44,883 nucleotides of DNA from Terriglobales bacterium (GTDB lineage Bacteria > Acidobacteriota > Terriglobia > Terriglobales > Acidobacteriaceae): the NCBI GenBank assembly GCA_025934735.1, contig JAICWP010000031.1, positions 1 through 44,883 on the forward strand, in the 5' to 3' direction. A model generated the notes under the pieces. The model was not told the origin of the DNA and searched no databases. It saw nothing but the letters and a program-made list of their open reading frames with translations. The stretch's first letter is position 1, and each line of letters opens with the position of its first letter. Made by a program: the position numbers and the translations under genes. Shown here in pieces: positions 23,010 through 43,244 of this stretch.

Positions 23010-24719
23010 TTACTTGGCTGCGGTGGACACCTCGCCGATGAAAACTCCGAAGGGCTGAAGTTCGGTCTGCACGGTTTTCGAATCCGATAACAATTTGGCG
23101 GAGGTGGCCAGCAGAGTGCTCACCCGCGGGCGGGCGAAGCCTTGCGCCGCCAGATTGAAGCTGGGCTTCTGCGCGCTATCTGACATGTTGAGAACCACCA
23201 GCACCGCTTTGCCCTGGTAGGAGCGCAAGTACGAGAGCACGTTGTTGTCGCTCTCGTTCAGCGGCACATAGCGGCCTTCGCGGAGCTGCAGGTTGGTGTG
23301 GCGCAGAGCCAGCACGTGCCTATAGAAGTTGAGGATGGAATTAGGGTCTTTGAGTTCGCTGGCCACGTTGTGAGTGTGATAGCTGTCGGGCACGGGCAGC
23401 CAGGGCTTGCCGGTGGTGAAACCGGCGTTGGCGGTGTCATTCCATTGCATGGGGGTGCGCTCGCCGTCGCGGCCCTTTTCTTTGGGCCAGCCGCGGCGGC
23501 CAATGGGATCCTTCACGTCCTCGCGGCGCGTGGGGTCGTTGTTCTGCATGCCGATTTCCTCGCCGTAATACATGATGGGCGTGCCGCGAAGGGTGAGATA
23601 GAAACCCGCGAGCAGTTTGGCGATCTGGTCGTTGTGCTGGCCGTCGCCGTAGCGGTTGTAGGCGCGCCGGATGTCGTGGTTGCTGAACACATAAACGGGC
23701 CAGCCGCCGGCGGAGTCCACGGCGGCAATCTGCTTGCGGAATTCAGGTGGGGAGAGTTTGTTCACCTGTGTGAATAGGAAGTCCATGGGCATCTGCAGCT
23801 CATTGCCGTGGCCGCCGTAATACTGCTGGAGTTCGGAAATGTCTCTGGTCCAGGTTTCGCCGATCAGCACCGCGTCATTCTGGTCGGCCACCTGGCGGAG
23901 TTGCCGGAGCACATCATGCAGTTCGGGCAGCTTGGTGTTGTACTTGTTGACCATGTTGGGCAGGCCGAAGGCGTTGGTGCCGGGCAGGGTGGAATTGTCG
24001 CGCAGCTTGGGATCTTCGAAGAGAGTGTCCACAGCGTCCAGGCGGAAGCCGGCAACCCCCCGCTTGAACCAGAAGCGGGGCACATCGAACATGGCTTTCT
24101 CCACCTCGGGATTGCGCCAGTTGAGGTCGGGTTGCTGGACGTAGAAGAAATGGTAGTAGAACTGCCTGGTCTTCGAGTCCCACTGCCAGGCGGAGCCGCC
24201 GAACGTTGACTCCCAGTTGTTGGGCGGCTGTCCGGGAGCGCGGCCGTCGCGCCAGACGTACCAGTCGCGCTTGGGTGCGGTGCGAGAAGAACGCGAGTTG
24301 ATGAACCAGGGATGCTGGTCAGAGGTGTGGTTCATCACAAAATCCATAATGATGCGGACGCCGCGCTGCTTGGCCTGGCGCTCCATGCGGTCAAAGTCGG
24401 CGAGGGTGCCGTACATGGGATCAATGTTGTCGTAATCGGAAACGTCGTAGCCGAAATCCACCTGCGGCGAGGGGTAGCAGGGGGTGATCCAGATGGCGTC
24501 CACGCCGAGATCGCGCAGGTAGGCGAGCTTGGAAGTGATGCCGGGCAGGTCGCCAATGCCGTCATTGTTATTGTCGGCAAAGCTGCGCGGGTAAATCTCG
24601 TAGAAGACGGCGTGCTGCCACCACTGGTGGCCTTCGGCATCGCGCGTTCGCTGCTGGGCCTGGGCAGAAGAGAAACACAGGAGAGATACGAGAAAGACCA
24701 GAACGGATGATTTAAGCAT
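23010..24719 (-). CDS. Secreted GH13 alpha-glucosidase / oligo-1,6-glucosidase-like enzyme
   Basis: Retaining alpha-glucosidase-type enzyme with a clear signal peptide (first 22 or so residues, ending SAQA). The GH13 barrel starts at WWQHAVFYEIYPRSF. Numbering from the chosen ATG, the catalytic nucleophile is D228 (GFRLDAVD), the acid/base is E288 (LIGETW) and the stabiliser is D349 (SNHD). The oligo-1,6-glucosidase/trehalose-synthase-like subfamily is the closest by eye (GIGDLPGI, DFVMNHTSDQHPWF). The chosen ATG follows GAGGAAA; an ATG five codons earlier lies on that ribosome binding site and is less likely. It sits downstream of the debranching-enzyme-like gene in the same direction, separated by a family A repeat. 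Likely substrate: periplasmic malto- or isomalto-oligosaccharides. Confidence 0.88.
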   Translation of the reverse strand: MLKSSVLVFLVSLLCFSSAQAQQRTRDAEGHQWWQHAVFYEIYPRSFADNNNDGIGDLPGITSKLAYLRDLGVDAIWITPCYPSPQVDFGYDVSDYDNIDPMYGTLADFDRMERQAKQRGVRIIMDFVMNHTSDQHPWFINSRSSRTAPKRDWYVWRDGRAPGQPPNNWESTFGGSAWQWDSKTRQFYYHFFYVQQPDLNWRNPEVEKAMFDVPRFWFKRGVAGFRLDAVDTLFEDPKLRDNSTLPGTNAFGLPNMVNKYNTKLPELHDVLRQLRQVADQNDAVLIGETWTRDISELQQYYGGHGNELQMPMDFLFTQVNKLSPPEFRKQIAAVDSAGGWPVYVFSNHDIRRAYNRYGDGQHNDQIAKLLAGFYLTLRGTPIMYYGEEIGMQNNDPTRREDVKDPIGRRGWPKEKGRDGERTPMQWNDTANAGFTTGKPWLPVPDSYHTHNVASELKDPNSILNFYRHVLALRHTNLQLREGRYVPLNESDNNVLSYLRSYQGKAVLVVLNMSDSAQKPSFNLAAQGFARPRVSTLLATSAKLLSDSKTVQTELQPFGVFIGEVSTAAK

Positions 24720-24759
24720 TGTGAATTTCCTCATCGCGAGGCGGCGGATTTCCCGTGCC

Positions 24760-24936: not shown

Positions 24937-27636
24937 TTACCGCCGGGTTCTTGCCGTTGCGCTCGAAATGAAGTGAACGATCACGACGGCGTTCTCATAT
25001 TCGGAGCGGCCGGGCCGGGGCGGAAAAGCGACGCGCAGGGCGGCCGACCCGTCCGGCAACTTTATCACCTTCCCACCATCCACCGAGGCGACCTGTCCGG
25101 GATTGCGTATGGACAAATCATAGTTATGGGCTGCGAGTCCGGCCAATTGCAGAGTTAGCGCGGTACGATCCGCATTCCAAGACTGGGAGATGAACTTGAG
25201 GGCGCGGGAGCGGGCGCCCAGCGGAGGCAAGGAATTGGCAAAATCGAGGTCAAAATCTTGGCGCAGGTGGATGCGCACAATGTTGTTGCCATCAAAGACG
25301 GCGAAGCGCACGCGCACGTGCTGGTCTTCGGGGTTACGCTCGGCACGGAAAGATGCGGGACGGCCGTTGACTTCAACGCCGGTCACCTGGGCGCGCAGGC
25401 TGATGGCAGGTGAGAATTCCAGGGTGCAGTCGCCGCGGCCACTGCGCCGGATCTGAAGCGTGATTTCGTCGTCCGTGCGCTCATAAGCGAGGTCGAGAGT
25501 GACCGGTCCTACGTGTTCGTTGCTTATATGAAACGAATTCCACTCTGCAGGTACATGGGGAGCAAACACCATCGTGTGGTGGAGTACATCAGCCTGCAAT
25601 CCCATCATGCCCAGCAGCAGCGGGCTGATGACCATGGCGGCAGACCAGATCTGGTGCGGCGATGCGGTGGAGAGACCCTGGTAGTAATCGCCCGACAAGA
25701 CCTCAGTGACATGGCCGAGGGAGCCGTCGAGAGCCAGCAGGGCATTGGCGCGCAGGTTGGCATAAGCGGGCAACGCGCGATGGTAGCGGTATTCGCCGAC
25801 GCTGGCCCAGCCGGTGAACAGCGGCCAGACGCTGCCATAGTGATAGCCTCCGGGATTGTAGCGGGGGTCGTGGTCAGAGATGATGCGAGCTCCCCAGTCA
25901 GCTTCGAAATCGGGAGCGGCGAGGCGGCTGATCATCAGCTCGGATTTGTGCGTATCCAGCAGATCAAACCACATGGGCACCGTGGCGAGAATGCTGGCGA
26001 CGTCAATCTGGTGGCCGTTCGGGTCCAGGCCGAAGGCATAGATTTTGTTTTGCGCATCCCAGAAGGACTGATTGAGCAAGGGGACCTGGAGTTGCGCGGC
26101 TTGTTCCATTTCGCCAACCACCGCAGTGTGCCCACTGAGACGAGCCAGATCGGCGAGGGCGAACAGGGCATCGATGCCGAGGCCGCTCTGGTAGAGTTCG
26201 GTCTTGATTGCTTGCGGAGCAGGACCGGCAGTGGAAGCCGAAGCGGTATCGGGCTTTTCCGGTGGACGCAGCGGGCCGCCTTCGACCCAGCCGTGGCCCA
26301 CGCCTAGGTTCTGCGCAAATCCATGCGCATCCCAGGTGGAATGCAGGAACTGATAGGCCTTCCAGAGGTTACCCCACTTCTCCGTGGCGAAGGCGACATC
26401 GCCGCTTTGCCGCACGTAATCACGCACCGCGATGATGAACAGGGGAGTAGCGTCGGCTGACGCCCAGGGATAAGGAAACTTGTTAAACCAGTCCACGAAG
26501 GTGGCAGTCTGGGAAATCTCGTGGGGGATTTTGCCATCCGCGCGCTGGTAGCGGGAAATGAAGTCGAGGGCCTGGCGGGCGTGAGCAAAGTCGCCCTCGG
26601 CATCGAGCGCGAAGGAACTCCACTCGGAGTCTCGTCCGAAGTACCAGGCGAAACCGGGGCGCTGGCTGTCACCCGACGTGCGGTAGCCGGCAACCAGGCC
26701 AGTGCCCAGGTAAGGGTTGGCCACCACGCCCTGGAGCAGGCTGACGCGGGCCCAATCGTAAGCCTGCTGAAGTTGCGGGTCAGGAAGTTGCAGGCTGACG
26801 GTCTGAGCCAGTTCGCGGCGGTAGTACTCGGCGGAATCGTGGAGAAGAGCGGCGTAGCCGGCGGCGAGATGCTTGTAGGTGGTTTCAGCAGCGGCGGGCC
26901 CGGTTACGGAACCGGCAATGACGATCATCTGGGTGGAGTTGCCTTTGCTGACCGGCGCGAGCGTAAACGAGCTTTCAGTAGAGGCGGAGTAGTTGGTGGC
27001 GTACTCCTGGCGGAAGGCGACCGCGTCCGGCGAGCCTACCAGGGCGGAAAACTTTTTCGATTCCTCGCCCAGGGAGAAGGCGTGCAGGGCCGGGTCCCAG
27101 CTCATATAAGTCGCGCCCAGGGCGGCCGGCCACTCCAAGGAGAAGTCGCGCACGAAAGAAGCTTGCACCTGGAGCGGTTCAACGGTGTGGATATCAAGAA
27201 TGATAACGGCGCCCTGTTCTGCAACGGGAACGAAGAGTGTCTCCTGCACCTGAAACGTATCGGAGGCGTAGAGGACAGTTGCAGATTCCGGACGCACGGT
27301 AATGGTGCGGGCCAGCGACTCGGCGGGGATGGCTTCGCCGCCCGCGTGAATGGTGAGATGAAACTCGCGAAACAGCTTTAGTGGATAGACCCAGGCTTCC
27401 AGTTGTCCAGCCTCGTTGCCGAATAGAGCGGCACGCTGGCCCACAGCGGGCAAGAACTCCCAGGGACGCGCGGGGCGGGAGAGTTCGAGGGCAGAAGCGC
27501 TGGGATTCGGAACGGCCAAAACAGCCGGAACCGCAGAAACCAGGAGAAGCGCGACCAGCGCTACTTCCAATCGGAACGTTGCCAACAGAGGTTGCAGCGG
27601 AGACAAAACCGGGAGCGGTTGCAAGGCGCGAGGCAT
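24937..27636 (-). CDS. Exported glycogen-debranching-enzyme-like (six-hairpin) glycosidase
   Basis: 899 residues. A hydrophobic export segment (about 24-42, ending VLAVP) precedes a beta-sandwich domain (to about 290). An (alpha/alpha)6 catalytic domain of the amylo-alpha-1,6-glucosidase type follows, with WYFGRDSEWSSFALDAEGD, YQRADGKIPHEIS, ASADATPLFIIAV and HYGSVWPLFTGWASVGEYRY, and then a C-terminal beta domain. Glycogen debranching enzymes of this fold remove alpha-1,6 branches, but related enzymes act on other glycosides, so the substrate is inferred mainly from the GH13 gene downstream. No Shine-Dalgarno is visible at the ATG. Divergent from the first CRTAC gene, with 58 bp between starts. 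Confidence 0.78.
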   Translation of the reverse strand: MPRALQPLPVLSPLQPLLATFRLEVALVALLLVSAVPAVLAVPNPSASALELSRPARPWEFLPAVGQRAALFGNEAGQLEAWVYPLKLFREFHLTIHAGGEAIPAESLARTITVRPESATVLYASDTFQVQETLFVPVAEQGAVIILDIHTVEPLQVQASFVRDFSLEWPAALGATYMSWDPALHAFSLGEESKKFSALVGSPDAVAFRQEYATNYSASTESSFTLAPVSKGNSTQMIVIAGSVTGPAAAETTYKHLAAGYAALLHDSAEYYRRELAQTVSLQLPDPQLQQAYDWARVSLLQGVVANPYLGTGLVAGYRTSGDSQRPGFAWYFGRDSEWSSFALDAEGDFAHARQALDFISRYQRADGKIPHEISQTATFVDWFNKFPYPWASADATPLFIIAVRDYVRQSGDVAFATEKWGNLWKAYQFLHSTWDAHGFAQNLGVGHGWVEGGPLRPPEKPDTASASTAGPAPQAIKTELYQSGLGIDALFALADLARLSGHTAVVGEMEQAAQLQVPLLNQSFWDAQNKIYAFGLDPNGHQIDVASILATVPMWFDLLDTHKSELMISRLAAPDFEADWGARIISDHDPRYNPGGYHYGSVWPLFTGWASVGEYRYHRALPAYANLRANALLALDGSLGHVTEVLSGDYYQGLSTASPHQIWSAAMVISPLLLGMMGLQADVLHHTMVFAPHVPAEWNSFHISNEHVGPVTLDLAYERTDDEITLQIRRSGRGDCTLEFSPAISLRAQVTGVEVNGRPASFRAERNPEDQHVRVRFAVFDGNNIVRIHLRQDFDLDFANSLPPLGARSRALKFISQSWNADRTALTLQLAGLAAHNYDLSIRNPGQVASVDGGKVIKLPDGSAALRVAFPPRPGRSEYENAVVIVHFISSATARTRR

Positions 27637-27694: not shown

Positions 27695-29539
27695 TTGCCT
27701 CTTTCGCGGCGCGCATTTCTCCGATCCTTGAGCCGGTCAGCGCTGGTGTTGCCTCTGGAAGGGGTGCTGGCCATGGCCGTGCCCCGGCAGTTGAGCGCGA
27801 TGCTGCGGCCGCAGAGTGCGGGTGTCCCACCTGCTGCTGTCCCTAAACCTGCGTCCAAATATCCTCCGCCGCCGAAATTCGCGGATCTCGACATCAGCTT
27901 TGTGGATGTGGCCAAGCAGGCGGGCCTGAATGCGAAAACTATTTTTGGCGGCGAACACAAGAACAAGTATCTGCTGGAGACCACCGGATGCGGGGTCGCC
28001 TTTTACGATTTCGATAGCGACGGCTGGCTGGATATATTTGTGGTCAACGGCTGGCGGTTAGAAGGATTCCCGGCGGGCAGCGAGCCGCATTGTCATCTCT
28101 TCAAGAACAATCGCGACGGCACATTCACTGATGTCACCGCCAAAGCGGGCCTGGCGCACACGGGCTGGGGGCAGGGTGTGTGCATTGGCGATTACGATAA
28201 TGATGGCTATGAAGACCTGTTCATCACTTACTTCGGCAAGAACGCTCTCTACCACAACAATGGGAATGGCACGTTTAGCGACGTAACCGACAAGGCGGGC
28301 GTGGGCGGAAACGGCAAGCGCTGGAGCACCGGCTGCGCTTTCATTGACTACGACCGCGATGGCCATCTCGACCTGTTCGTGGCCAACTACATTGATTTGG
28401 ATTTGAAAACGGCGCCCGTGCCAGAGTCTGGACCCTGCCTATATAAGGGAGTGATGGTGGCGTGCGGGCCGCCGGGCCTGAACGGCAGCAAGAACATCCT
28501 CTACCACAACAATGGGAATGGCACGTTCACGGATGTGTCCGAACCCTCCGGCATCTTGCAGGCGAACGGCACCTACGGGCTGGGAGTGCTGACCGCGGAC
28601 TTCGACAACGACGGCTGGCCGGACATCTACGTGGCCGACGACTCCAGTCCCAGCTTGCTATATCAGAACAAGAAGAACGGAAAGTTCGAGGACATTGGAA
28701 TTCTGGCCGGGTGCGCCTTCAGCCCGGATGGCAAGCCGCAGGCAGGCATGGGCGTTTCCGCCGGCGACTATGACCTGGACGGCAACCTGGATATTGTGAA
28801 GACCAACTTCGCAGGCGACACGCATTCGCTCTACCACAACGTGGGGAGCAGCAACTTTGAAGATACGACGTACTCCGCCGGGCTGGGGCTGAACACGCGC
28901 TTTCTGGGCTGGGGCTGCGGCTGGTTCGATATGGATAACGACGGCTGGCCTGACATCCTGATCTGCAATGGGCACGTGTATCCGGAAGTGGAACAGCTTA
29001 CGACAGAGGAGGGTTACGCACAACGCAAGCTAGTCTATCGCAACCTGCGCAATGGAAAATTCGAGGACGTTTCCCTGGTGGCGGGGCCAGGGATCACCAC
29101 CCCGGCGCCGGCGCGCGGCTGCGCTTTCGGTGACTTCGACAATGACGGCGATGTGGACATGGTGGTGAACACGGTTAATTCGTTTCCCCAGCTGCTGCGC
29201 TGCGATTCGCCGGGGAAATCGCACTGGATCAAGGTGCGGACTATTGGAGTGAAGTCCAATCGCAGCGGGATCGGAGCGCGGCTGCGCTGCGTAACCCAGC
29301 CGCAGGACGAATCCGGGCCCCACCAGCAGATTGACGAGGTGCGCAGCGGCGGAGGGTACCTCTCGCAAAGCGATCTGCGGGTCCACTTCGGGCTGGGCAA
29401 GGCGGAGAAGGTCGACGTGCTCGAGATCCGCTGGCCCAGCGGGCACGTGGATACGCTCAAGAATGTTCTGGCGGACCAAGTGATTTATGTCGAAGAGGGA
29501 AAGGGAATTGTGCGGACGATGAAGTTCGGGAAGAAGTGA
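27695..29539 (+). CDS. CRTAC-type ASPIC/UnbV beta-propeller protein, Tat signal
   Basis: 614 residues starting at TTG. A twin-arginine export signal, SRRAFLRSL, is at residues 4-12, followed by a hydrophobic stretch. Seven FG-GAP/VCBS-type calcium-loop repeats follow (for example DFDSDGWLDIF, DYDNDGYEDLF, DYDRDGHLDLF, DFDNDGWPDIY, DYDLDGNLDIV, DMDNDGWPDIL, DFDNDGDVDMV), predicted to fold as a beta-propeller. The C-terminal ASPIC/UnbV domain carries EVRSGGGYLSQSDLRVHFGL and IRWPSGHVDTL. A conserved Cys pair (CLYKGVMVACGPPG) is shared with the neighbour. Exported, calcium-binding; biochemical role unknown. The TTG is the first ordinary start after an in-frame stop and is supported by the Tat motif. 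Confidence 0.85.
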   Translation: MPLSRRAFLRSLSRSALVLPLEGVLAMAVPRQLSAMLRPQSAGVPPAAVPKPASKYPPPPKFADLDISFVDVAKQAGLNAKTIFGGEHKNKYLLETTGCGVAFYDFDSDGWLDIFVVNGWRLEGFPAGSEPHCHLFKNNRDGTFTDVTAKAGLAHTGWGQGVCIGDYDNDGYEDLFITYFGKNALYHNNGNGTFSDVTDKAGVGGNGKRWSTGCAFIDYDRDGHLDLFVANYIDLDLKTAPVPESGPCLYKGVMVACGPPGLNGSKNILYHNNGNGTFTDVSEPSGILQANGTYGLGVLTADFDNDGWPDIYVADDSSPSLLYQNKKNGKFEDIGILAGCAFSPDGKPQAGMGVSAGDYDLDGNLDIVKTNFAGDTHSLYHNVGSSNFEDTTYSAGLGLNTRFLGWGCGWFDMDNDGWPDILICNGHVYPEVEQLTTEEGYAQRKLVYRNLRNGKFEDVSLVAGPGITTPAPARGCAFGDFDNDGDVDMVVNTVNSFPQLLRCDSPGKSHWIKVRTIGVKSNRSGIGARLRCVTQPQDESGPHQQIDEVRSGGGYLSQSDLRVHFGLGKAEKVDVLEIRWPSGHVDTLKNVLADQVIYVEEGKGIVRTMKFGKK

Positions 29540-29629: not shown

Positions 29630-31399
29630 CTATTTTGAGGTTCCCGAGCGTGGCGGGGGATCCGGCTGCTTAACCCCACTCCCTTCGTGAAGGGTGTGGA
29701 TAGAATCGACGGAGAGATTGGCAAAGCGCTCCGTCAGGCCGCTGGGCCAGCGAATCTGCAGGTCATCAATTTTGGCGGCGGTGCCCAGGCCGAAGTGAAC
29801 CCGCATGTCGCTGTTGGAATCGTAGCTGGAGCCGCTGCGCACTTCCTCCACCAGCGTTCGCTTGCCCAGTTTCACTGTGATGCGCGCGCCAATACCGTCG
29901 CGGTTGGAACTGGTGCCCACGCTTTTGATTTCCAGCCAATGATTTTTGTTGTGCACCTGGTTGACCAGCAGGCTGGGACGGGCGTTCATGTTGCTGATCA
30001 CAGCGGCGAGTTGGCCGTTGTTCCACAAATCGCCAATGGCTAGCCCGCGGCCTGACCAGCGCGCGGTGATGCCCGGACCTGCATTTTCCGAAATGTCGGT
30101 AAAAGTGCCGTTGCCATTGTTGTGGTAGAGGATTCGCGGTTCCTCGTAGTTGCTGCCCAGCTTGTACTTATCCACCTCGGGATAGACGTGCCCGTTCACC
30201 AGCAGCAGGTCGGGCCAGGTGTCGTTATCGAAATCCAAAAACATGGCTCCCCAGCCCAGGTACTGGGTGTGAAGGCCCAGGCCGGCGGGGAAGGTAGCAT
30301 CCGAGAAAGTTCCATCGCCGTTGTTGTGGTAGAGGGTGGAGGTGTCGTCGGAAAAATTGGTTTTGAAGATGTCAAGATTGCCGTCGCCGTCGTAGTCAGC
30401 GACCGTGGAACCCATGCCTGCCTGGGCGCGGCCATCCTCGTTGAAGGCGGCGCCGGCCACCACGGCCACATCGGTGAAAGTGCCGTCGTGATTGTTGCGG
30501 TAAAGGATGCTGGGCGTGCTGTCGCAGGCGACATAAATATCCGGCCAGCCGTCATTGTCGTAATCAACCGTGGTAATGCTGAGCGAGTAATACCCGGCTG
30601 ACTGGTCGATGTGCGACTTGGCGCTGACGTCTTCGAAAGTGCCGTCGCCGCGATTGTGATAGAGAATGTTCTTGGCCGCTTTCAGGCCGCGAGGGCCGCA
30701 CATTACAGGCACGCCCTTCCAGAGGCAGGTAGGACGTTCGCCGGGTTTGGGCGCGGTAGCCAGATCGAAATCCACGTAGTTGGCGACCATTAAATCGAGC
30801 TTGCCGTCGCGGTCATAATCCACAAAGGCGCAGCCCGACCCCCAGGCTTTGCCGGTGCCGGCCACGCCGGCTTTTTCGGCCACTTCGGTAAACGTGCCGT
30901 GGTTGTTGTGGTAGAGGCGGTTTTTGCCGTAATAAGTGACGTAAAGGTCTTCCCAGCCAGTGTTGTCGTAATCGCCAACGCACACGCCCTGCCCCCAGCC
31001 GGGAGCGCCGGCCAGTCCGGCCTGCATAGTCACGTCGGTAAAGGTGCCGTCGTGATTGTTGCGATAAAGATGGTTGGTGGGGCCCTTACCCGCAGGCGAG
31101 CCTTCGAGGGTAGTGCCGTTGACCAGGAAAATGTCGGGCCAGCCGTCGTTGTCATAATCAAAAATGGCGACCCCGGTGCCGGTGGTCTCGATGATGTATT
31201 GCTTGGTTTGCAGGCCCCCGAAAACCTCCTGCATGGTCAGGCCAGCCTTCTCAGCACCGTCGGTGAACCAGGCGATTCGGGATGGCTGGGAAGCGCTTGG
31301 AGTTTGGGCATTTTCGGCGAGCGCCGCAGGCAGCCACAACAGGGCCACGAGGAGGAACAGAGACAGCCAGTAGGGGCGGCGTTGCCGGGCCGAAGACAT
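29630..31399 (-). CDS. CRTAC-type ASPIC/UnbV beta-propeller protein, Sec signal
   Basis: 589-residue paralogue of the gene that converges on it, alignable end to end by eye (WGQGVC.GDYDN, GCAF.DYDRDG, CGP.GL, KNILYHN). It carries a Sec-type signal peptide (MSSARQRRPYWLSLFLLVAL..., cut near ALA) instead of the Tat signal of its partner. FG-GAP calcium loops are present, but two are degenerate: DYDNTGWEDLY and the final DLWNNGQLAAV. The C-terminal ASPIC/UnbV domain is complete (EVRSGSSYDSNSDMRVHFGL, IRWPSGLTERF). Exported calcium-binding beta-propeller of unknown function. The divergent gene on its left flank in transcription terms is the long TPR protein. Confidence 0.85.
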   Translation of the reverse strand: MSSARQRRPYWLSLFLLVALLWLPAALAENAQTPSASQPSRIAWFTDGAEKAGLTMQEVFGGLQTKQYIIETTGTGVAIFDYDNDGWPDIFLVNGTTLEGSPAGKGPTNHLYRNNHDGTFTDVTMQAGLAGAPGWGQGVCVGDYDNTGWEDLYVTYYGKNRLYHNNHGTFTEVAEKAGVAGTGKAWGSGCAFVDYDRDGKLDLMVANYVDFDLATAPKPGERPTCLWKGVPVMCGPRGLKAAKNILYHNRGDGTFEDVSAKSHIDQSAGYYSLSITTVDYDNDGWPDIYVACDSTPSILYRNNHDGTFTDVAVVAGAAFNEDGRAQAGMGSTVADYDGDGNLDIFKTNFSDDTSTLYHNNGDGTFSDATFPAGLGLHTQYLGWGAMFLDFDNDTWPDLLLVNGHVYPEVDKYKLGSNYEEPRILYHNNGNGTFTDISENAGPGITARWSGRGLAIGDLWNNGQLAAVISNMNARPSLLVNQVHNKNHWLEIKSVGTSSNRDGIGARITVKLGKRTLVEEVRSGSSYDSNSDMRVHFGLGTAAKIDDLQIRWPSGLTERFANLSVDSIHTLHEGSGVKQPDPPPRSGTSK

Positions 31400-37202: not shown

Positions 37203-37222
37203 GCTTCGATTACTCTCTTGCG

Positions 37223-37253
37223 GAGGGAGCCTGTATGGCTCCCTCTTTTTTTT
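37223..37253 (+). terminator. Rho-independent terminator of the Oar-like receptor
   Basis: A perfect 9-bp stem GAGGGAGCC / GGCTCCCTC with loop TGTAT is followed by eight T residues, 20 bp after the stop codon. Confidence 0.92.
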
Positions 37254-37354: not shown

Positions 37355-39229
37355 TTACTGAGCCTTGGAGCCCTTCTGCACCCGAACCTGCTGCAGCAGA
37401 CGCAAGTTATCCTTAGCGATCTGGTTATCGGGATCGAGGCTGAGGGCTCGCCGCAGATGGGCCTCGGCAGCGGCGTATTCCTGCTGCGCGGCCAGGACCG
37501 ATCCCAGGCGCGCCTCGGCATCGGCGTCGTTGGGCCGGCGCTGCAGGACCTGCTCAAACTGCCGGGCGGATTCGGCGAACTGGCCGGTGAAGGCCAGCGC
37601 CGAGGCCAGGTTATAGCGCGCATCGAGATAGTCGGGGTCGGCTTGGACGGCCTGCTGCAGTCGCAGTACGGCATCCTGCTTGCGTCCAAGTTGCAGCAGG
37701 GCCGCTCCCAGGCTGTTGAGGGCGGTGGCGCTTCCGGGGCGCTGGGCAATGGCACGCTCAAACCTGGGGACGGCGTTGGCCGGCTGCTGGCGCGAGAGCA
37801 TTAGCGCGCCCAGATTGTAGTTAGCGGCGTAATCGTTGGGATCGTGCACCAGCTTGTGCCGCATCAGCGCTTCCTGCAGCACCGTACGTCCGTCTCCGCC
37901 GCCGGGAGCAGGGCTGGGCACCACCTGCAGGGAAAGATGCGCCATCTCGTCCATGGCCATGTTGCCGGCCATGACCCGCTGGGGGGGATGGTGGGGATTG
38001 TGCGGGTTCTGCTCCGAGTTGTCGTAGCTGTAGCGCATGGAAATCACGCTGCCGGCGGGGAGGAACACAGGCTGCTTATAGCGATAAATGCCCTGCCAGG
38101 CAGGGTCCCATCGGGGGATCAGCAACAGCCATTTGCGCGAGCCGTCCGGCAGGGTGGCGTAGGCTGCCAGGCGCTTGCCGAGATAATGGGCGTGGGGATA
38201 GACCGCGTAAGCCCGCACAGCCAGCGGCAGCTTGAAGTCGTCCCCCACCTGGAAATCGCGGGCCCCGGCTGGAATGTTGAGCTCGTCATCGCGGTCCAGT
38301 TGCAGCAGCATGGGGTTGAGCGTGGGCTTCTTGTCTGAGAAATAAAGCCCGATGGTGGGCTGGATGGGTACGGGAGTGCCTGAGGGCCGCAGGTGGATGT
38401 TGAGCACCAGGTCGGTGCCGGGCGAGAGGCGCCAGGTCATGTCCTCAGGCTCACGCCAGATGGGAATGCCGGGTTTCCAATAAATGAAGTGGCCCTCCGG
38501 TTCGAAGGCATCGCTCTCCATCTCCACATCCATGCCGTCAAACCCGGGGCCGGTGCCATGATGACGCGCTTCCATGCGCCGCGCCGAGTGGGTGCGATCA
38601 ATCAGCAGGTTGGCATGGTGAGTGACCTTGGGATTGCCGGGATGAATCTCCACCGCTCTTACATAGTGGGTGCTAGTAACCGGAACCTGGAAGATGAAGT
38701 TGTGGTAAACGTCCATGCCCTCGGCGGGCACCACATAGCCGGGCGGGGCTTGCAGGATGAGATCGGGCTTGCCGCCCTGCCAGCCAGAAGCCAGCTTCGG
38801 AGGTGGAGGCGCCTGGGCGAGATTGCCCGCCGGCGCTCCTTGGTCGGCCCAGCGGGCAAGGATGGTGATTTGTTGCTCAGTCAGGCGAAGCTGATCGGCG
38901 AAGGCCACCGCCGCGGGATCAGGCAGCCACGGGGGCATGATGCGGTTGCGGGTGACGAACGCAATTTGCCGCGCGTGCTGCCTGGCATCCTCATAGGTGA
39001 CCAGCGACATTGGGCCTGACCCGCCGGGCTGGTGGCACTGCACGCAGTTGGCATAGAGGATGGGAGCCACGTCGTGGCTGTAAGTGGGATGCTGAGGCGC
39101 TGATTTCGCAGGGGTAGAAGGCGATTGTGCCGCTCCGCCCAAGGCGATGGCCGCGCCCGCCAGCACTAAGGTCGGGAGTGCTAAACAGCGATTCACGCGG
39201 TCAACCCAATCACGCAGGGCACGGCACAT
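37355..39229 (-). CDS. Cytochrome c / PHM-like copper monooxygenase / TPR fusion
   Basis: 624 residues. An export segment lies at about 15-34. A c-type heme site CVQCH is at 62-66 with a likely distal Met at M98 (RIMPPW). A two-domain copper type II, ascorbate-dependent monooxygenase-like region follows (about 150-440), then four or five TPR repeats (about 455-615). All six copper ligands of peptidylglycine alpha-hydroxylating monooxygenase have counterparts: H204/H205 (VTHHANLL) and H279 (LNIHLRP) for CuH; H346/H348 (YPHAHYLGK) and M429 (DEMAHLSL) for CuM. The heme may supply electrons in place of ascorbate. The substrate is unknown. Divergent from another secreted TPR protein; convergent with the Oar-like receptor. 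Confidence 0.85.
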   Translation of the reverse strand: MCRALRDWVDRVNRCLALPTLVLAGAAIALGGAAQSPSTPAKSAPQHPTYSHDVAPILYANCVQCHQPGGSGPMSLVTYEDARQHARQIAFVTRNRIMPPWLPDPAAVAFADQLRLTEQQITILARWADQGAPAGNLAQAPPPPKLASGWQGGKPDLILQAPPGYVVPAEGMDVYHNFIFQVPVTSTHYVRAVEIHPGNPKVTHHANLLIDRTHSARRMEARHHGTGPGFDGMDVEMESDAFEPEGHFIYWKPGIPIWREPEDMTWRLSPGTDLVLNIHLRPSGTPVPIQPTIGLYFSDKKPTLNPMLLQLDRDDELNIPAGARDFQVGDDFKLPLAVRAYAVYPHAHYLGKRLAAYATLPDGSRKWLLLIPRWDPAWQGIYRYKQPVFLPAGSVISMRYSYDNSEQNPHNPHHPPQRVMAGNMAMDEMAHLSLQVVPSPAPGGGDGRTVLQEALMRHKLVHDPNDYAANYNLGALMLSRQQPANAVPRFERAIAQRPGSATALNSLGAALLQLGRKQDAVLRLQQAVQADPDYLDARYNLASALAFTGQFAESARQFEQVLQRRPNDADAEARLGSVLAAQQEYAAAEAHLRRALSLDPDNQIAKDNLRLLQQVRVQKGSKAQ

Positions 39230-39348
39230 GGGAAAGGCGTCGGCATTTTATCGCCTTTTGCCCCGGGGGAACAATCGCGCCATGCCGAAGAGGTGGCCCG
39301 GATCACAAAATGGCCGGGTGAGGTAGTATTTCGATTGCGGATACCACC

Positions 39349-40386
39349 ATGTTCTTAGGATTATTGCTTCTCTTCCCCCTGCTGGGCCAGGCCGCCAGCC
39401 CAGGACCGCCTGCAGCACCGAAAGCACCTGCCCAGGCCTCAACGGAGACTGCGACGGCTAATCCAGCGGCCACATTCGCCCAGGCGCAGGGTTTGGTTGA
39501 CCGCGGCCAATTCGACGAGGGCATCTCCCTTCTGCGGCAGTTGCAGGCGCGGGACCCGAAAACGAAGGGCCTGAATCGCGAGTTTGGCGTCGCCTACTAC
39601 AAGCACAGCGACTTCATGAGCGCGGCGGGGTACCTGCAACAGGAGCTGCAGGAGGATCCCAGCGACAGCGAGGCTACCCAGCTGCTCGGACTCTCTTACT
39701 ACTTCTCGGGCAAGCCGGCGCAGGCAGTTCCCTTATTGGAAAAGGTGAACTCTTGGTATCCCTCCGCCAACGTGGATGCCAGTTACGTGCTGGGCATCTG
39801 CTACATCCAGCTGCGCAACTATGACCAGGCGCGCAAGGCGTTCGCCGCCATGTATGGGGTAAAACCCGATTCGGCTCCAGCCTACCTGTTCGCGGCGCGC
39901 ATGCTGCTGCGGGAGGAATTTGACCCTATCGCGGAACATTATGCCAAGCAGGCCATCGCCATTGATCCCAAGCTGCCGCTGGCGCATTACTTTCTAGGCG
40001 AACTTTATCTTTACAAGTCGCGGATTCCGGAATCCATCGAGCAATTCCAGCAGGAGCTGGTGCTTGATCCGGCGCACGCGCCCACCTATTACAAGCTCGC
40101 CGACGCCTACACGCGGGTGATGAAATGGGATGATGCCGAACGGCTGCTGCAGCGTTCCATCTGGCTAGATTCCACCGCCAGCGGACCCTACATCCTGATG
40201 GGCAAGGTGCTGCTGAACAAGGGCGAACCGAACCTGGCCGTGCGCACTTTAAAGCACGCATTGCAGATGGATCCCAACAATTACATTACCCACCATTTGC
40301 TGGGGGAATCTTACCGGGCGCTCGGCGAGGCACAGCAGGCGTCAGATGAGCTGAAGCTGGCTGGGCAGTTGGAATCGAAACAATAG
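39349..40386 (+). CDS. Secreted TPR protein
   Basis: 345 residues with a signal peptide (MFLGLLLLFPLLGQA) and an Ala/Pro/Thr-rich linker (about 16-40). About eight TPR units follow, to the C-terminus (for example REFGVAYYKHSDFMSAAGYL, AHYFLGELYLYKSRIPESIE, ITHHLLGESYRALGEAQQAS). Likely an exported scaffold. It starts 119 bp from the start of the heme-copper-TPR gene on the other strand, so the two may share regulation and act together. Confidence 0.85.
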   Translation: MFLGLLLLFPLLGQAASPGPPAAPKAPAQASTETATANPAATFAQAQGLVDRGQFDEGISLLRQLQARDPKTKGLNREFGVAYYKHSDFMSAAGYLQQELQEDPSDSEATQLLGLSYYFSGKPAQAVPLLEKVNSWYPSANVDASYVLGICYIQLRNYDQARKAFAAMYGVKPDSAPAYLFAARMLLREEFDPIAEHYAKQAIAIDPKLPLAHYFLGELYLYKSRIPESIEQFQQELVLDPAHAPTYYKLADAYTRVMKWDDAERLLQRSIWLDSTASGPYILMGKVLLNKGEPNLAVRTLKHALQMDPNNYITHHLLGESYRALGEAQQASDELKLAGQLESKQ

Positions 40387-40545: not shown

Positions 40546-41529
40546 TTAGTGCTGGTCTTCTGCTTTGGCTATACCCACGTATTTATCGGCGCCGCCGTAA
40601 TACAAGAGCCAGCGCTCGCCGCTGCGCACCAGGCCTTCGACGAAAACCACGTTGGGCACCTGGCCAATCTTCTCCCATTCTTCTTGGGGCTGGAAAATCG
40701 GAGTGTCCGAGCGCGCCCGCACCTTGGCAGGATCGTTTTTGTCGAACAACACCCAGCCGGTGCGGTAAACCAGGTGCTCATCGGCACCGTTATAGATGAG
40801 GAAGATGCCATCGCGGGTGATGACCGGGGGTGGTCCTGGTTCTACAACACGCGAGTCGAACTGCCCGGGGCGCCGCGCCAGCACAGGTTGAGGGAGCGCG
40901 TCGGTCCAGTGCAGCAGGTCGGTGGACCACGCTAGGCCCATCTGGTCGGTGTCGTCGGCCTTGGTGCCCAGGTAGTACATCCACCATTTCCCGGCAATCT
41001 GGCGCGGGACGATGGCGCCGGACTTGGTCCACTTCACATTCCACTTGCCTTTGTAAGCGGGCAGAAGAATGCCGCGGCGCTGCCAGTGAATAAGGTCTTG
41101 GGAGGTAGCCAGGCAAAGCTGAGCGTCGCGCTTGTTGTACCCGGTGTAAGTCAGATACCAGAGGCTGCCGATCTTGACGAGGCGAGGGTCCTCCACGCCG
41201 CCATCTTTTTCATAGTCCGCTTCCGGAACAAGAACGGGCTGCGTGCGGCGGGTGAAATGAACGCCATCGCGGCTGGTCGCGTAACCCAGCCGCGAAGTGC
41301 CGCTCTTATCCTGAGCGCGATAGAGCATGACGAAGCGGCCGCCATCCTTAACCACGGCTGGATTAAACACGCCGGCGGATTCAAAGCCGCTGCCCAGCGG
41401 GGTAAGGATGGGCTGGCGCGAGAGCCGCTTCCAGGGACCGAAAGGCGGGGTGAACTTCGAGCCGTTCGCGGACAATAAGACCGCGACAGCGGCGAGCAGC
41501 AAAAGGAATCTGGCCAGGCGCGAAGTCAT
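40546..41529 (-). CDS. Exported GH130-family mannoside hydrolase/phosphorylase
   Basis: 327 residues from the ATG that overlaps the trehalase stop by 4 bp. A signal peptide covers about 1-22. A five-bladed beta-propeller of the GH130 type follows: GVFNPAVV, MLYRAQD with SRLGYATSRDGVHF, the catalytic EDPR motif at 113-116 (D114 is the expected acid), LTYTGYN, VEPGPPPVITRDGIFLIYNG, and FVEGLV with LLYYGGADKYVGIA. Most characterised GH130 enzymes are cytoplasmic beta-mannoside phosphorylases; exported members tend to be hydrolases, so I infer hydrolysis of mannosides or related glycans in the periplasm. Translationally coupled to trehalase. Confidence 0.82.
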   Translation of the reverse strand: MTSRLARFLLLLAAVAVLLSANGSKFTPPFGPWKRLSRQPILTPLGSGFESAGVFNPAVVKDGGRFVMLYRAQDKSGTSRLGYATSRDGVHFTRRTQPVLVPEADYEKDGGVEDPRLVKIGSLWYLTYTGYNKRDAQLCLATSQDLIHWQRRGILLPAYKGKWNVKWTKSGAIVPRQIAGKWWMYYLGTKADDTDQMGLAWSTDLLHWTDALPQPVLARRPGQFDSRVVEPGPPPVITRDGIFLIYNGADEHLVYRTGWVLFDKNDPAKVRARSDTPIFQPQEEWEKIGQVPNVVFVEGLVRSGERWLLYYGGADKYVGIAKAEDQH

Positions 41530-43244
41530 TGGGCAGTTGCTGGTGGAGCCGGCAGCCTTTTGAGGCGTTCCACCCAATCCTGCGGCAGTTCGTGCAGCAA
41601 GGCCAGGAAAGCGGCATTGGTCCAGCCGAAGCCAATTACATTGGCCTCGTAGCCGACGGAAACCTTAGTTTCATCCGATCGGGTCACGACGTTGTATTTT
41701 TCGCGGATAGTGCCATCGCGGCGAAAATTCTCATCCACCATGGAGAGGAATTTGTAACTCAGCCGGTTGGCATCCTCATTGAAGCCGTAGCGGCGGAGCC
41801 CTTCGATGGCCAGCAGTTGCGTGGGCGCCCAGCCGTAGGGCAGGTCCCACTGCACACCGGTTTGCTGGTCGCTCATGGCCAGTCCGCCAGGGTGCTCCAA
41901 AATGCGCAAGTTGCGCTCCAAGGCACGCGCCTGCTCGGGGGTGGCCAGCCCGGCCCACAGCGGATAAAACGTGGTGATGTAATGGTAGGTTGAGCGGGCG
42001 CCCTGGCGGAAGTCGTAATCGAAAAACAGGCCGCGCTGCGGGTCCCAGAGATATTTGTCGATAGCTTCCCGCCGGGCCTGGGCGCGCTGGGCCCATTGGC
42101 GGGCTTCCGCGGGCTTACCCAGCAGGGTGGCCATCTGCTCCAGGTCTTTTTCGGTCTTGTATAGAAGACTGTTCAGGCAGACGGGCGCGTAGTACTGAGT
42201 GTCGCCGTCATAAGGGCCGAAGCGGAAGGAAGGATCGAAGCCGGACTCGCGCATGCTGCGGTCGGCCTTGTAGAACTCGGGAGTCAGTTGGAGATCCTTC
42301 ACATGGGTGCAGCCGGCGGATTGCTGGCTGGCAATCTCTTCTCCGGAGCAGACTTCCAGCGAGAACGGGGGACCCGCCTCTGCGGAGGCCGTTTTCTCCA
42401 GCAGAAGGTGACCGGTGGCCGCCGTGGGGTGGACCACGTAATAGCCGGCGACCGCCCGGTAATAGCCGGGATCATTGTGGAGTTCTTCGGGCGCCGGTCC
42501 AGTGCCGAAATCGAAATACCGGGAGAGACCGGTGGAGCCGGCCAAGTGCGGTTCGTGAACCCAGAGTTGATAATCCTTGCCGGCATCCTGATAGGCGCGT
42601 TGCAGCCAGGCTTGATCATTCTTGCCCGCCGCTTTATCGGCGTCATAAACCCCGAGGATCATGGAAGTGAGAAAGGGCGGCTGGGAGCGGCTGAGGTAAT
42701 AGGTTCGGTTGGCGTTGAGCACGCCGCCGTAGTGTTCGATCTCGAAGAAGAAGTTTTCCACCATGTCGCGGGCGAGGTCCACACGCCCATCGCGCAGCAG
42801 GCCGCGAATGATGAAGTAGCTGTCCCAGCCATACATCTCGTTGAAGCGGCCGCCGGGCACCACATAGGGATGATCGAGGAAGAGCAGGCCTTGAGTCTGG
42901 AGGGTGCGCGGATCAATTTCCCCCAGGCCATGCAGGACTTTGGGCAAGTGCTGCACGGAAACGTTGCATTCCTTGGAAAGCGCCGCCAGGCTGGACGGTT
43001 CGGGGAAGTCCGCCGGCAGATACACCACCGAAGAGGTCTTCAGCTTGGGATCGGTCACGCTGGCGCACTGATTCATGGAGCGGGTGAGCGTGTCCCAGGC
43101 GTTGGAAATGTAGTGCAGGATGGGCGCGAGGCCAGGCTCGGGAGCTGCCGGAGAGGGGGCGGGCTGCGGGGAAGTTGCCTGGGAAAGAGCAGGCAGGCTG
43201 AGAGCCAGGACAACGGGAATAAGACGAATCTTGTTTAAGAGCAT
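41526..43244 (-). CDS. Periplasmic trehalase (GH37)
   Basis: Inverting hydrolase that splits trehalose to two glucoses. A signal peptide covers about 1-23 (LIPVVLALSLPALSQA). Both family signatures are present: PGGRFNEMYGWDSYF (130-144) and QWDLPYGWAP (465-474). The catalytic acid is D337 (ESGFDPSFRF) and the base is E533, just before IGFGWTN. The PROSITE-like and catalytic blocks are intact and the length of 572 residues is normal. I chose the ATG giving a clean signal peptide; an ATG 27 codons upstream would add a Cys/Trp-rich extension. Its product and that of the GH130 gene are both exported. Confidence 0.92.
   Translation of the reverse strand: MLLNKIRLIPVVLALSLPALSQATSPQPAPSPAAPEPGLAPILHYISNAWDTLTRSMNQCASVTDPKLKTSSVVYLPADFPEPSSLAALSKECNVSVQHLPKVLHGLGEIDPRTLQTQGLLFLDHPYVVPGGRFNEMYGWDSYFIIRGLLRDGRVDLARDMVENFFFEIEHYGGVLNANRTYYLSRSQPPFLTSMILGVYDADKAAGKNDQAWLQRAYQDAGKDYQLWVHEPHLAGSTGLSRYFDFGTGPAPEELHNDPGYYRAVAGYYVVHPTAATGHLLLEKTASAEAGPPFSLEVCSGEEIASQQSAGCTHVKDLQLTPEFYKADRSMRESGFDPSFRFGPYDGDTQYYAPVCLNSLLYKTEKDLEQMATLLGKPAEARQWAQRAQARREAIDKYLWDPQRGLFFDYDFRQGARSTYHYITTFYPLWAGLATPEQARALERNLRILEHPGGLAMSDQQTGVQWDLPYGWAPTQLLAIEGLRRYGFNEDANRLSYKFLSMVDENFRRDGTIREKYNVVTRSDETKVSVGYEANVIGFGWTNAAFLALLHELPQDWVERLKRLPAPPATAQ

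Follow-up and report, generated by a model that had tools for sequence, protein, structure and literature searches.

The gene and its predicted protein

The subject of this report is a gene in a 44,883-nucleotide stretch of DNA from a Terriglobales bacterium (contig JAICWP010000031.1; hereafter, the window). The gene lies at 37355..39229 on the minus strand and would encode a protein of 624 residues, apparently exported, in which a c-type cytochrome domain is followed by a putative dicopper monooxygenase core with the fold of peptidylglycine alpha-hydroxylating monooxygenase (PHM) and dopamine beta-hydroxylase (DBH), and then by a tail of tetratricopeptide repeats (TPRs). The initial annotation of this DNA had given the interval correctly and left the strand unstated; stops interrupt the corresponding frame on the plus strand, and the minus strand is one open frame. 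The residue numbers that it assigned to the presumed metal-binding positions (C62/C65/H66, H204, H205, H279, H346, H348 and M429) are all exact, and the export signal that it proposed agrees with our by-eye reading of the N-terminus, in which the hydrophobic stretch LALPTLVLAGAAIALG lies within a signal peptide of about residues 1–35 (39125..39229).

The remaining features of the protein are also encoded on the minus strand. The cytochrome domain, recognized from its CxxCH motif and from Pfam and VIA matches, covers residues 45–150 (38780..39097). It contains the heme attachment motif C62-V-Q-C65-H66 (39032..39046) and, within an MPPW motif, Met98 (38936..38938), the probable second ligand of the heme iron. 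Two jelly-roll domains with approximate borders follow, one of the CuH type (about residues 153–300, 38330..38773) and one of the CuM type (about residues 301–440, 37910..38329). By alignment, the CuH ligands are H204-H205 (38615..38620) and H279 (38393..38395), and the CuM ligands are H346-A-H348 (38186..38194) and M429 (37943..37945); we take their rat PHM counterparts to be H107/H108, H172, H242/H244 and M314, respectively. A family-specific loop, D403-N-S-x-x-N-x-x-N-P-x-x-P-P (37982..38023), partly faces an eight-residue gap in rat PHM. The TPR array, identified from Pfam TPR families and modelled helices, extends over about residues 447–612 (37394..37891).

Copper core, heme domain and family

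The relationship to PHM and DBH can be followed from family profiles to a predicted structure. In a Pfam scan the window protein alone has no match to PF01082, and NCBIfam searches return TPR plus stray weak matches only. Among 48 relatives, PF03712 is matched at E<=0.1 in 40 (best 2.3e-9) and PF01082 in 4; both oxygenase copies of L001, a record named as Planctomycetota, exceed the PF03712 cut-off. For the search of PDB sequences, a profile of the 48 cores alone replaced both a single-protein search and a full-length profile, which had been swamped by TPR matches. The core profile finds rat PHM (E 2e-7) and human DBH (E 6e-7), and all six copper ligands pair in the three rat PHM alignments printed. 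An AlphaFold2 model based on 47 sequences has a mean predicted local distance difference test score (pLDDT) of 91 and a predicted template modelling score (pTM) of 0.85. When this model is submitted to Foldseek, the top rows are PHM and DBH (3mll, E 2.4e-12; 4zel, E 1.1e-11), and VIA-align superimposes residues 156–455 on rat PHM 1phm with a Z score of 20.3, at 3.2 Å over 260 residues and across both copper domains. As far as sequence and model tell, the protein probably belongs to the dicopper monooxygenase kind.

In the heme domain, Pfam Cytochrome_CBB3 (cbb3-type) weakly matches 45 of the 48 relatives at E<=0.1, and the domain folded alone has a pLDDT of 83. VIA, queried with the isolated domain, ranks five heme c proteins at the top, among them two larger enzymes that include a cytochrome domain; the best is the Geobacter cytochrome PccH (4rlr, Z 6.4, 2.1 Å over 75 residues), which is also the best cytochrome in the 48-core profile search (E 0.042). 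Both PccH matches are weak, PccH is free-standing, unlike the domain studied here, and we do not take weak VIA or Foldseek rows as proof of fold. Genes for cytochrome c assembly are present in the window's genome (PF01578, five matches).

That the fusion is a one-off can be rejected, as a heme–PHM family is found across many genomes. Searches with the core at E<=1e-10 give matches in 116 of the 250 genomes from the window's class (46 of 95 genera), and as many as nine were counted in a single genome. For the phylum of L001, there are matches at E<=1e-20 in 43 of 119 genomes. These copy numbers are minimum values, as first-look candidates were scored up to 7 per genome in the class, 15 in the L001 phylum and 55 in the barrel search described further on. 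Given how common the family is, unassigned oxygenase chemistry may be widespread. The window's genome itself has two oxygenase copies, the second of which (C38:146437-147609) is without a TPR tail.

Conservation was judged on 76 distinct copies from two genome groups, the window's included, which are mostly best-scoring copies and not a random draw. The CxxCH motif, Met98 and the five copper-binding histidines are invariant in all 76, and M429 is kept in 75; the exception, L047, is truncated where its DNA ends. In the loop, D403, N404, S405, N408, N411 and P415 are present in 76 copies and P412 in 75. Because the heme motif, Met98 and the copper ligands are conserved across these copies, a chance origin of the motifs is excluded. 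In the part after the heme domain, 44 of the 76 members have no cysteine and none has more than four. Taken with the rat PHM alignments and the two-domain superposition, which is the check that the initial annotation had suggested, this conservation bears out its proposal of a PHM fold with all six copper ligands, and its heme c domain is likewise upheld by the CxxCH motif in every copy. The two-domain match also tells against the outcome named there as refuting, a fold in which the listed His and Met residues fail to gather at two sites about 11 Å apart.

The TPR tail had also been recognized, correctly, in the initial annotation: Pfam TPR families match the window protein above cut-off (for example, TPR_2 at 64.6 bits versus 27), and VIA aligns the TPR part to a designed TPR cage protein with a Z score of 19.8. 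All 37 TPR-bearing copies fall within one clade of 40 rows, with a Shimodaira–Hasegawa-like approximate likelihood ratio test (SH-aLRT) value of 99 in a tree made by a quick method with no bootstrap. The three members of the clade without a TPR match (L047, L065 and L096) all reach the end of the available sequence. Among 36 tails, one of the 37 having been omitted for its length, Asn472 is kept in 23, Asn505 in 23 and Asn540 in 26, each Asn belonging to a different repeat. We take one Asn per repeat to be a pattern of peptide-binding TPRs such as OGT, and from the sequence it is possible that the tail recruits a protein.

Fragments, edge rows and rows of odd length were dropped from individual alignments of the 49 rows (L013 and L038 from A1; L010 from A2; L010, L020, L033 and L047 from A4), and the broken or split copies L009 and L011 were kept out of all of them. 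L009 (G004:C155) is a broken cytochrome–PHM–TPR gene copy in a draft genome. Among the literature matches listed, from a search whose scope was outside preprints and most subscription papers, there was no paper on the family; the passages returned from PMC6107167 and PMC3494510 are not about it.

Electron supply and the redoxin partner

A protein about 200 residues long with Pfam Redoxin/AhpC-TSA matches (below the cut-off in L054) recurs among the gene neighbourhoods of 40 loci. Cys69-Pro70 and a C-terminal Gly-Cys196 are invariant in the 15 sequences aligned. By alignment to thioredoxin, we read Cys69 as the likely attacking cysteine; the second thioredoxin-type cysteine is replaced, mostly by Ser, in members from the window's class, and the redoxin of L001 has CPIC. 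In a six-frame search, the redoxin gene is mostly directly upstream of the oxygenase gene on the same strand. Copies with >900 upstream bases were judged, and all those scored as having none have at least 1,500; L086, with a redoxin 1.3 kb upstream, is scored as none. Of the 54 copies in the window's class, the window's own among them, 52 were judged and 20 proved to have the redoxin directly upstream, comprising 17 of 34 with a TPR tail and 3 of 18 others. Of 22 copies from the phylum of L001, 11 are oxygenases with the redoxin as an N-terminal fusion and 3 have it upstream, with neither arrangement in 7 and one copy unjudgeable. That the two genes are joined in the L001 phylum and are neighbours in the window's class is strong evidence that redoxin and oxygenase work together, and the redoxin is a specific, testable partner.

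Some loci depart from the usual order. At L088:7318-10100, two tandem cytochrome–PHM genes have the redoxin downstream instead of upstream, and at L061:8248-12976 two such genes, one with and one without a TPR tail, flank a single redoxin gene. In the window, the best stray tblastn match to the redoxin (E 0.003 at 40867-41040, inside the open reading frame of a GH130 protein) was taken as chance.

A second candidate for a redox role is a heptaheme cytochrome (seven CxxCH motifs) fused to TPRs, and so itself another heme–TPR fusion. It is encoded directly upstream of the redoxin in L071 (6161-7837), L077 (6417-8213) and L078 (6416-8227), and nearby in L052 (15608-17209). The oxygenase and this cytochrome are possibly redox partners.

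In animals, the electron donor of PHM and DBH is ascorbate. We favor, with a probability of about 0.6, a reading of the window protein as a periplasmic or otherwise exported PHM/DBH-fold dicopper monooxygenase that would receive electrons via its own heme c instead. This reading draws on the conserved copper ligands and heme motif, the profile and model matches to PHM and DBH, the adjacency or fusion of the redoxin, the heptaheme cytochrome genes at some loci, and the cytochrome assembly genes. The initial annotation had already suggested that a fused heme could replace ascorbate as the donor, and as an inference this is supported by the heme motif being kept in all 76 copies. In the proposed mechanism, a periplasmic cytochrome pool would reduce the heme c, as the heptaheme cytochrome of the cluster could in some relatives. 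Electrons entering at the N-terminal heme would pass to CuH (H204, H205, H279), with no soluble ascorbate involved, and the second electron would cross from CuH to CuM (H346, H348, M429), where O2 would be activated and one oxygen atom would enter a C–H bond of the substrate. The redoxin would probably maintain the enzyme's copper or thiols, with the window's organism managing without it, and the TPR tail would be a docking platform for a partner. What we observed are the sequence, the predicted fold, the conserved ligands, the partner gene and the gene cluster; copper and heme occupancy, the electron path, the chemistry and the docking are what we infer.

Several results weigh against this reading. 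Taken alone, the window protein scores 14.8 bits against PF03712, under the cut-off of 23 (E 0.021). For the isolated heme domain, Foldseek gives no match at E<=0.001, and its fold match is weak, with VIA Z scores of at most 6.4. The cysteines behind the disulfides of animal PHM and DBH are mostly absent from the family. The redoxin, finally, is not directly upstream in 17 of the 34 judged TPR-bearing class copies, and neither a redoxin beside the oxygenase gene nor a remnant of one turned up when the window was searched in six frames and by tblastn.

The same redoxin data bear on two other explanations. In the first, the redoxin would be the physiological donor, its dithiol reducing heme or copper, with only a relay or sensing role left to the heme. 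The gene fusions and adjacency, together with Cys69 and Cys196 being invariant in all 15 aligned redoxins, are what this explanation would lead one to expect, but many oxygenase copies have no adjoining redoxin, and the window's genome has three partial redoxin matches only (best 1.5e-10), in contrast to a heme motif present in all 76 copies; we regard it as improbable. In the second, the protein would carry out no hydroxylation and would instead be a copper-handling, copper-sensing or oxygen-reducing protein that retains the PHM fold and sites. Thioredoxin-fold redoxins include copper chaperones (Sco), so a redoxin partner would fit. However, both copper sites, including the CuM Met, are kept in 75 of 76 copies, as catalysis needs, and no copper pump or copper regulator is found among the 27 window proteins scanned, so that we consider this explanation, too, rather doubtful.

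Compared with known systems, the favored heme-fed monooxygenase has parallels as well as parts of its own. Like PHM (rat; 1phm, 1opm, 3mll), it has the two-domain fold and all six copper ligands. Unlike PHM, it carries its own heme c domain, the DNSxxNxxNPxxPP loop and a TPR tail, has few if any cysteines, and contains no PAL lyase domain. Human DBH (4zel) shares the catalytic core and likewise carries an extra N-terminal domain, although that domain, DOMON, is a beta-sandwich, whereas the bacterial one is a mostly helical c-type cytochrome; in addition, DBH has a dimerisation domain where the bacterial protein has TPRs. DOMON is described in the available passages of PMC4846438 as having the fold of a cytochrome domain, and we count this in favor of the heme-fed reading, as an apt parallel to an N-terminal heme domain. 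Relative to PHM and DBH, what is new is the built-in heme c, together with the family loop, the TPR tail and the redoxin partner.

A heme domain that feeds a copper monooxygenase outside the cytoplasm has a further parallel in cellobiose dehydrogenase acting with lytic polysaccharide monooxygenase (LPMO), or in heme–LPMO fusions. LPMO differs in having a single copper and a fold unlike that of PHM.

For PHM and DBH, a long-running question is how electrons are brought together with oxygen when the two coppers lie far apart. The separation of the sites is given as about 11–14 Å, or 4–5 Å in a closed form, in the passages available from PMC4846438. A heme c on the same core would offer an electron entry that is coloured and can be followed kinetically, next to a copper part with few or no cysteines, and for these reasons the question of electron transfer between the coppers becomes directly testable.

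Substrate and gene cluster

The animal use of the PHM/DBH fold is the making of peptide hormones and noradrenaline. One possibility is that the window protein is a bacterial peptidylglycine alpha-hydroxylase that starts C-terminal peptide amidation as animal PHM does; it shares the fold and copper ligands with PHM, and a peptide could be held by the TPR tail. In rat PHM, R240, N316 and Y318, located two residues before the first CuM histidine and two and four residues after Met314, are presumed here to bind the peptide carboxylate, a role that our literature search neither supported nor denied. In the window protein these positions are Y344, H431 and S433, and across the 76 copies the three columns are mixed, the commonest residues being Y (39), H (33) and W (39). 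Because the presumed carboxylate-binding residues are not kept, a peptidylglycine substrate is unlikely, and the glycine-extended peptides put forward in the initial annotation do not find support. Moreover, a Pfam scan confined to 27 window proteins found no NHL/PAL-like lyase among them. Amidation is thus highly improbable as the function, and, as tested on these positions, the oxygenase would stand outside the peptide-amidating enzymes.

A survey of gene neighbours, also suggested in the initial annotation, brought out the redoxin partner described above and, in addition, a recurrent cluster of sugar type. In the window, this cluster begins with a GH13 alpha-amylase-family enzyme (23010..24734, minus strand) and an MGH1-like/GDE-like glycoside hydrolase (24937..27636, minus), followed by an FG-GAP/UnbV_ASPIC protein (27695..29539, plus) and a second one (29630..31399, minus). 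These two genes lie tail to tail and account for two of the ten ASPIC matches counted in the genome. Next are a TPR protein (TPR31524; 31524..33338, plus) and an outer-membrane beta-barrel (OMP33396; 33396..37202, plus) that combines OMP_b-brl_4 with CarboxypepD_reg. Beyond the oxygenase gene are a second TPR protein (TPR39349; 39349..40386, plus), exported by a by-eye reading, a flanking GH130 family protein (40546..41577, minus) and a trehalase of the same cluster (PF01204; 41526..43325, minus).

To see how far this setting recurs, the window proteins were used as queries (>=80 bits) around the 36 other TPR-bearing oxygenase loci, some of which have short flanks (for example, L046, L048, L059, L085 and L108). 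Relatives of OMP33396 are found near 17 of the 36 loci, with >900 bits in 8; those of the ASPIC proteins are near 10, TPR31524 8, TPR39349 7, GH13 5 and trehalase 1. The heptaheme cytochrome, with the L077 protein as query, is near 4. Of 12 genomes queried in full, 8 have their best window-barrel match beside the oxygenase, and TPR39349 gives the same proportion (8 of 12), but these counts are biased, nine of the twelve genomes having been picked for known neighbours, and 8 of 36 is the plainer count. In G240 the best TPR39349 match is about 95 kb from the oxygenase, and in G286 the best barrel is on another contig. ASPIC genes are located within 9 kb of the oxygenase in 9 of 25 genomes versus 1.24 expected or, by genus, in 5 of 13 versus 1.13 expected (P 0.0014), where the expectation assumes uniform placement and independent genomes.

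Gene order varies as well. In L064, L066, L069 and L071, the barrel, redoxin, oxygenase and TPR genes follow one another in this order on one strand; the barrel of L069 is cut at the contig end, and L071 has the heptaheme cytochrome between barrel and redoxin. In L061 the second oxygenase gene, which is without TPRs, is between barrel and redoxin. The window has its oxygenase gene inverted between the barrel and TPR genes and lacks the redoxin. The cluster also occurs without an oxygenase in G237, G034 and G009, with barrel and TPR39349 adjacent in the first two (L118 and L119) and the cluster at the ends of two contigs in G009 (L120 and L121). These oxygenase-free clusters variously include GH32, a PfkB kinase, trehalase, GH13 and a sugar porter; L118 adds the GH32 and the kinase, and L121 the sugar porter. 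The clusters in L118–L121 possibly represent a locus for non-reducing disaccharides or fructans, where the products of the barrel, TPR and ASPIC/FG-GAP genes might form an uptake system of the Sus type.

These neighbours raise the further alternative that the enzyme oxidises a sugar, an oligosaccharide or a surface protein of the uptake machinery, in other words that the PHM fold was recruited to carbohydrate use. The window's own cluster (GH13, GDE-like, trehalase, GH130, barrel, TPR and ASPIC) suggests it, as do the recurrence of barrel, TPR39349, TPR31524, GH13 and ASPIC relatives near other TPR-bearing copies and the proximity of ASPIC genes beyond expectation. On the other hand, the same cluster exists without the oxygenase, 28 of the 36 TPR-bearing copies have no barrel relative above 900 bits (some flanks being short, and the L069 piece being at a contig end), and several of the genomes come from the same genus, which leaves the counts non-independent. 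We consider this alternative unlikely. As the sugar-type cluster occurs with and without it, the oxygenase is a module that the cluster can do without, and it may serve the cluster or merely ride in it. A broader picture, to which we would give small odds, is that a large bacterial branch of the PHM/DBH fold runs on heme c and redoxin in place of ascorbate, and that its TPR clade was recruited to outer-membrane sugar-uptake clusters, hydroxylating a glycoside or a surface protein of the uptake apparatus.

The oxygenase gene and the divergent TPR gene at 39349 share an intergenic region of 119 bases (39230..39348, no strand), which is the likely place of the oxygenase promoter; a sigma-70-like site was looked for there and none was found. 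On the other side, just past the barrel gene, a strong terminator-like hairpin (10 pairs, then a T run) at 37222-37246 on the plus strand separates that gene from the end of the inverted oxygenase gene. Farther along the window, in a phosphoesterase open reading frame (PF04185; 42913-44619, minus), the Pfam match is lost near residue 372 and the end overlaps the trehalase open reading frame, possibly as a result of a frameshift in the gene or in the assembly.

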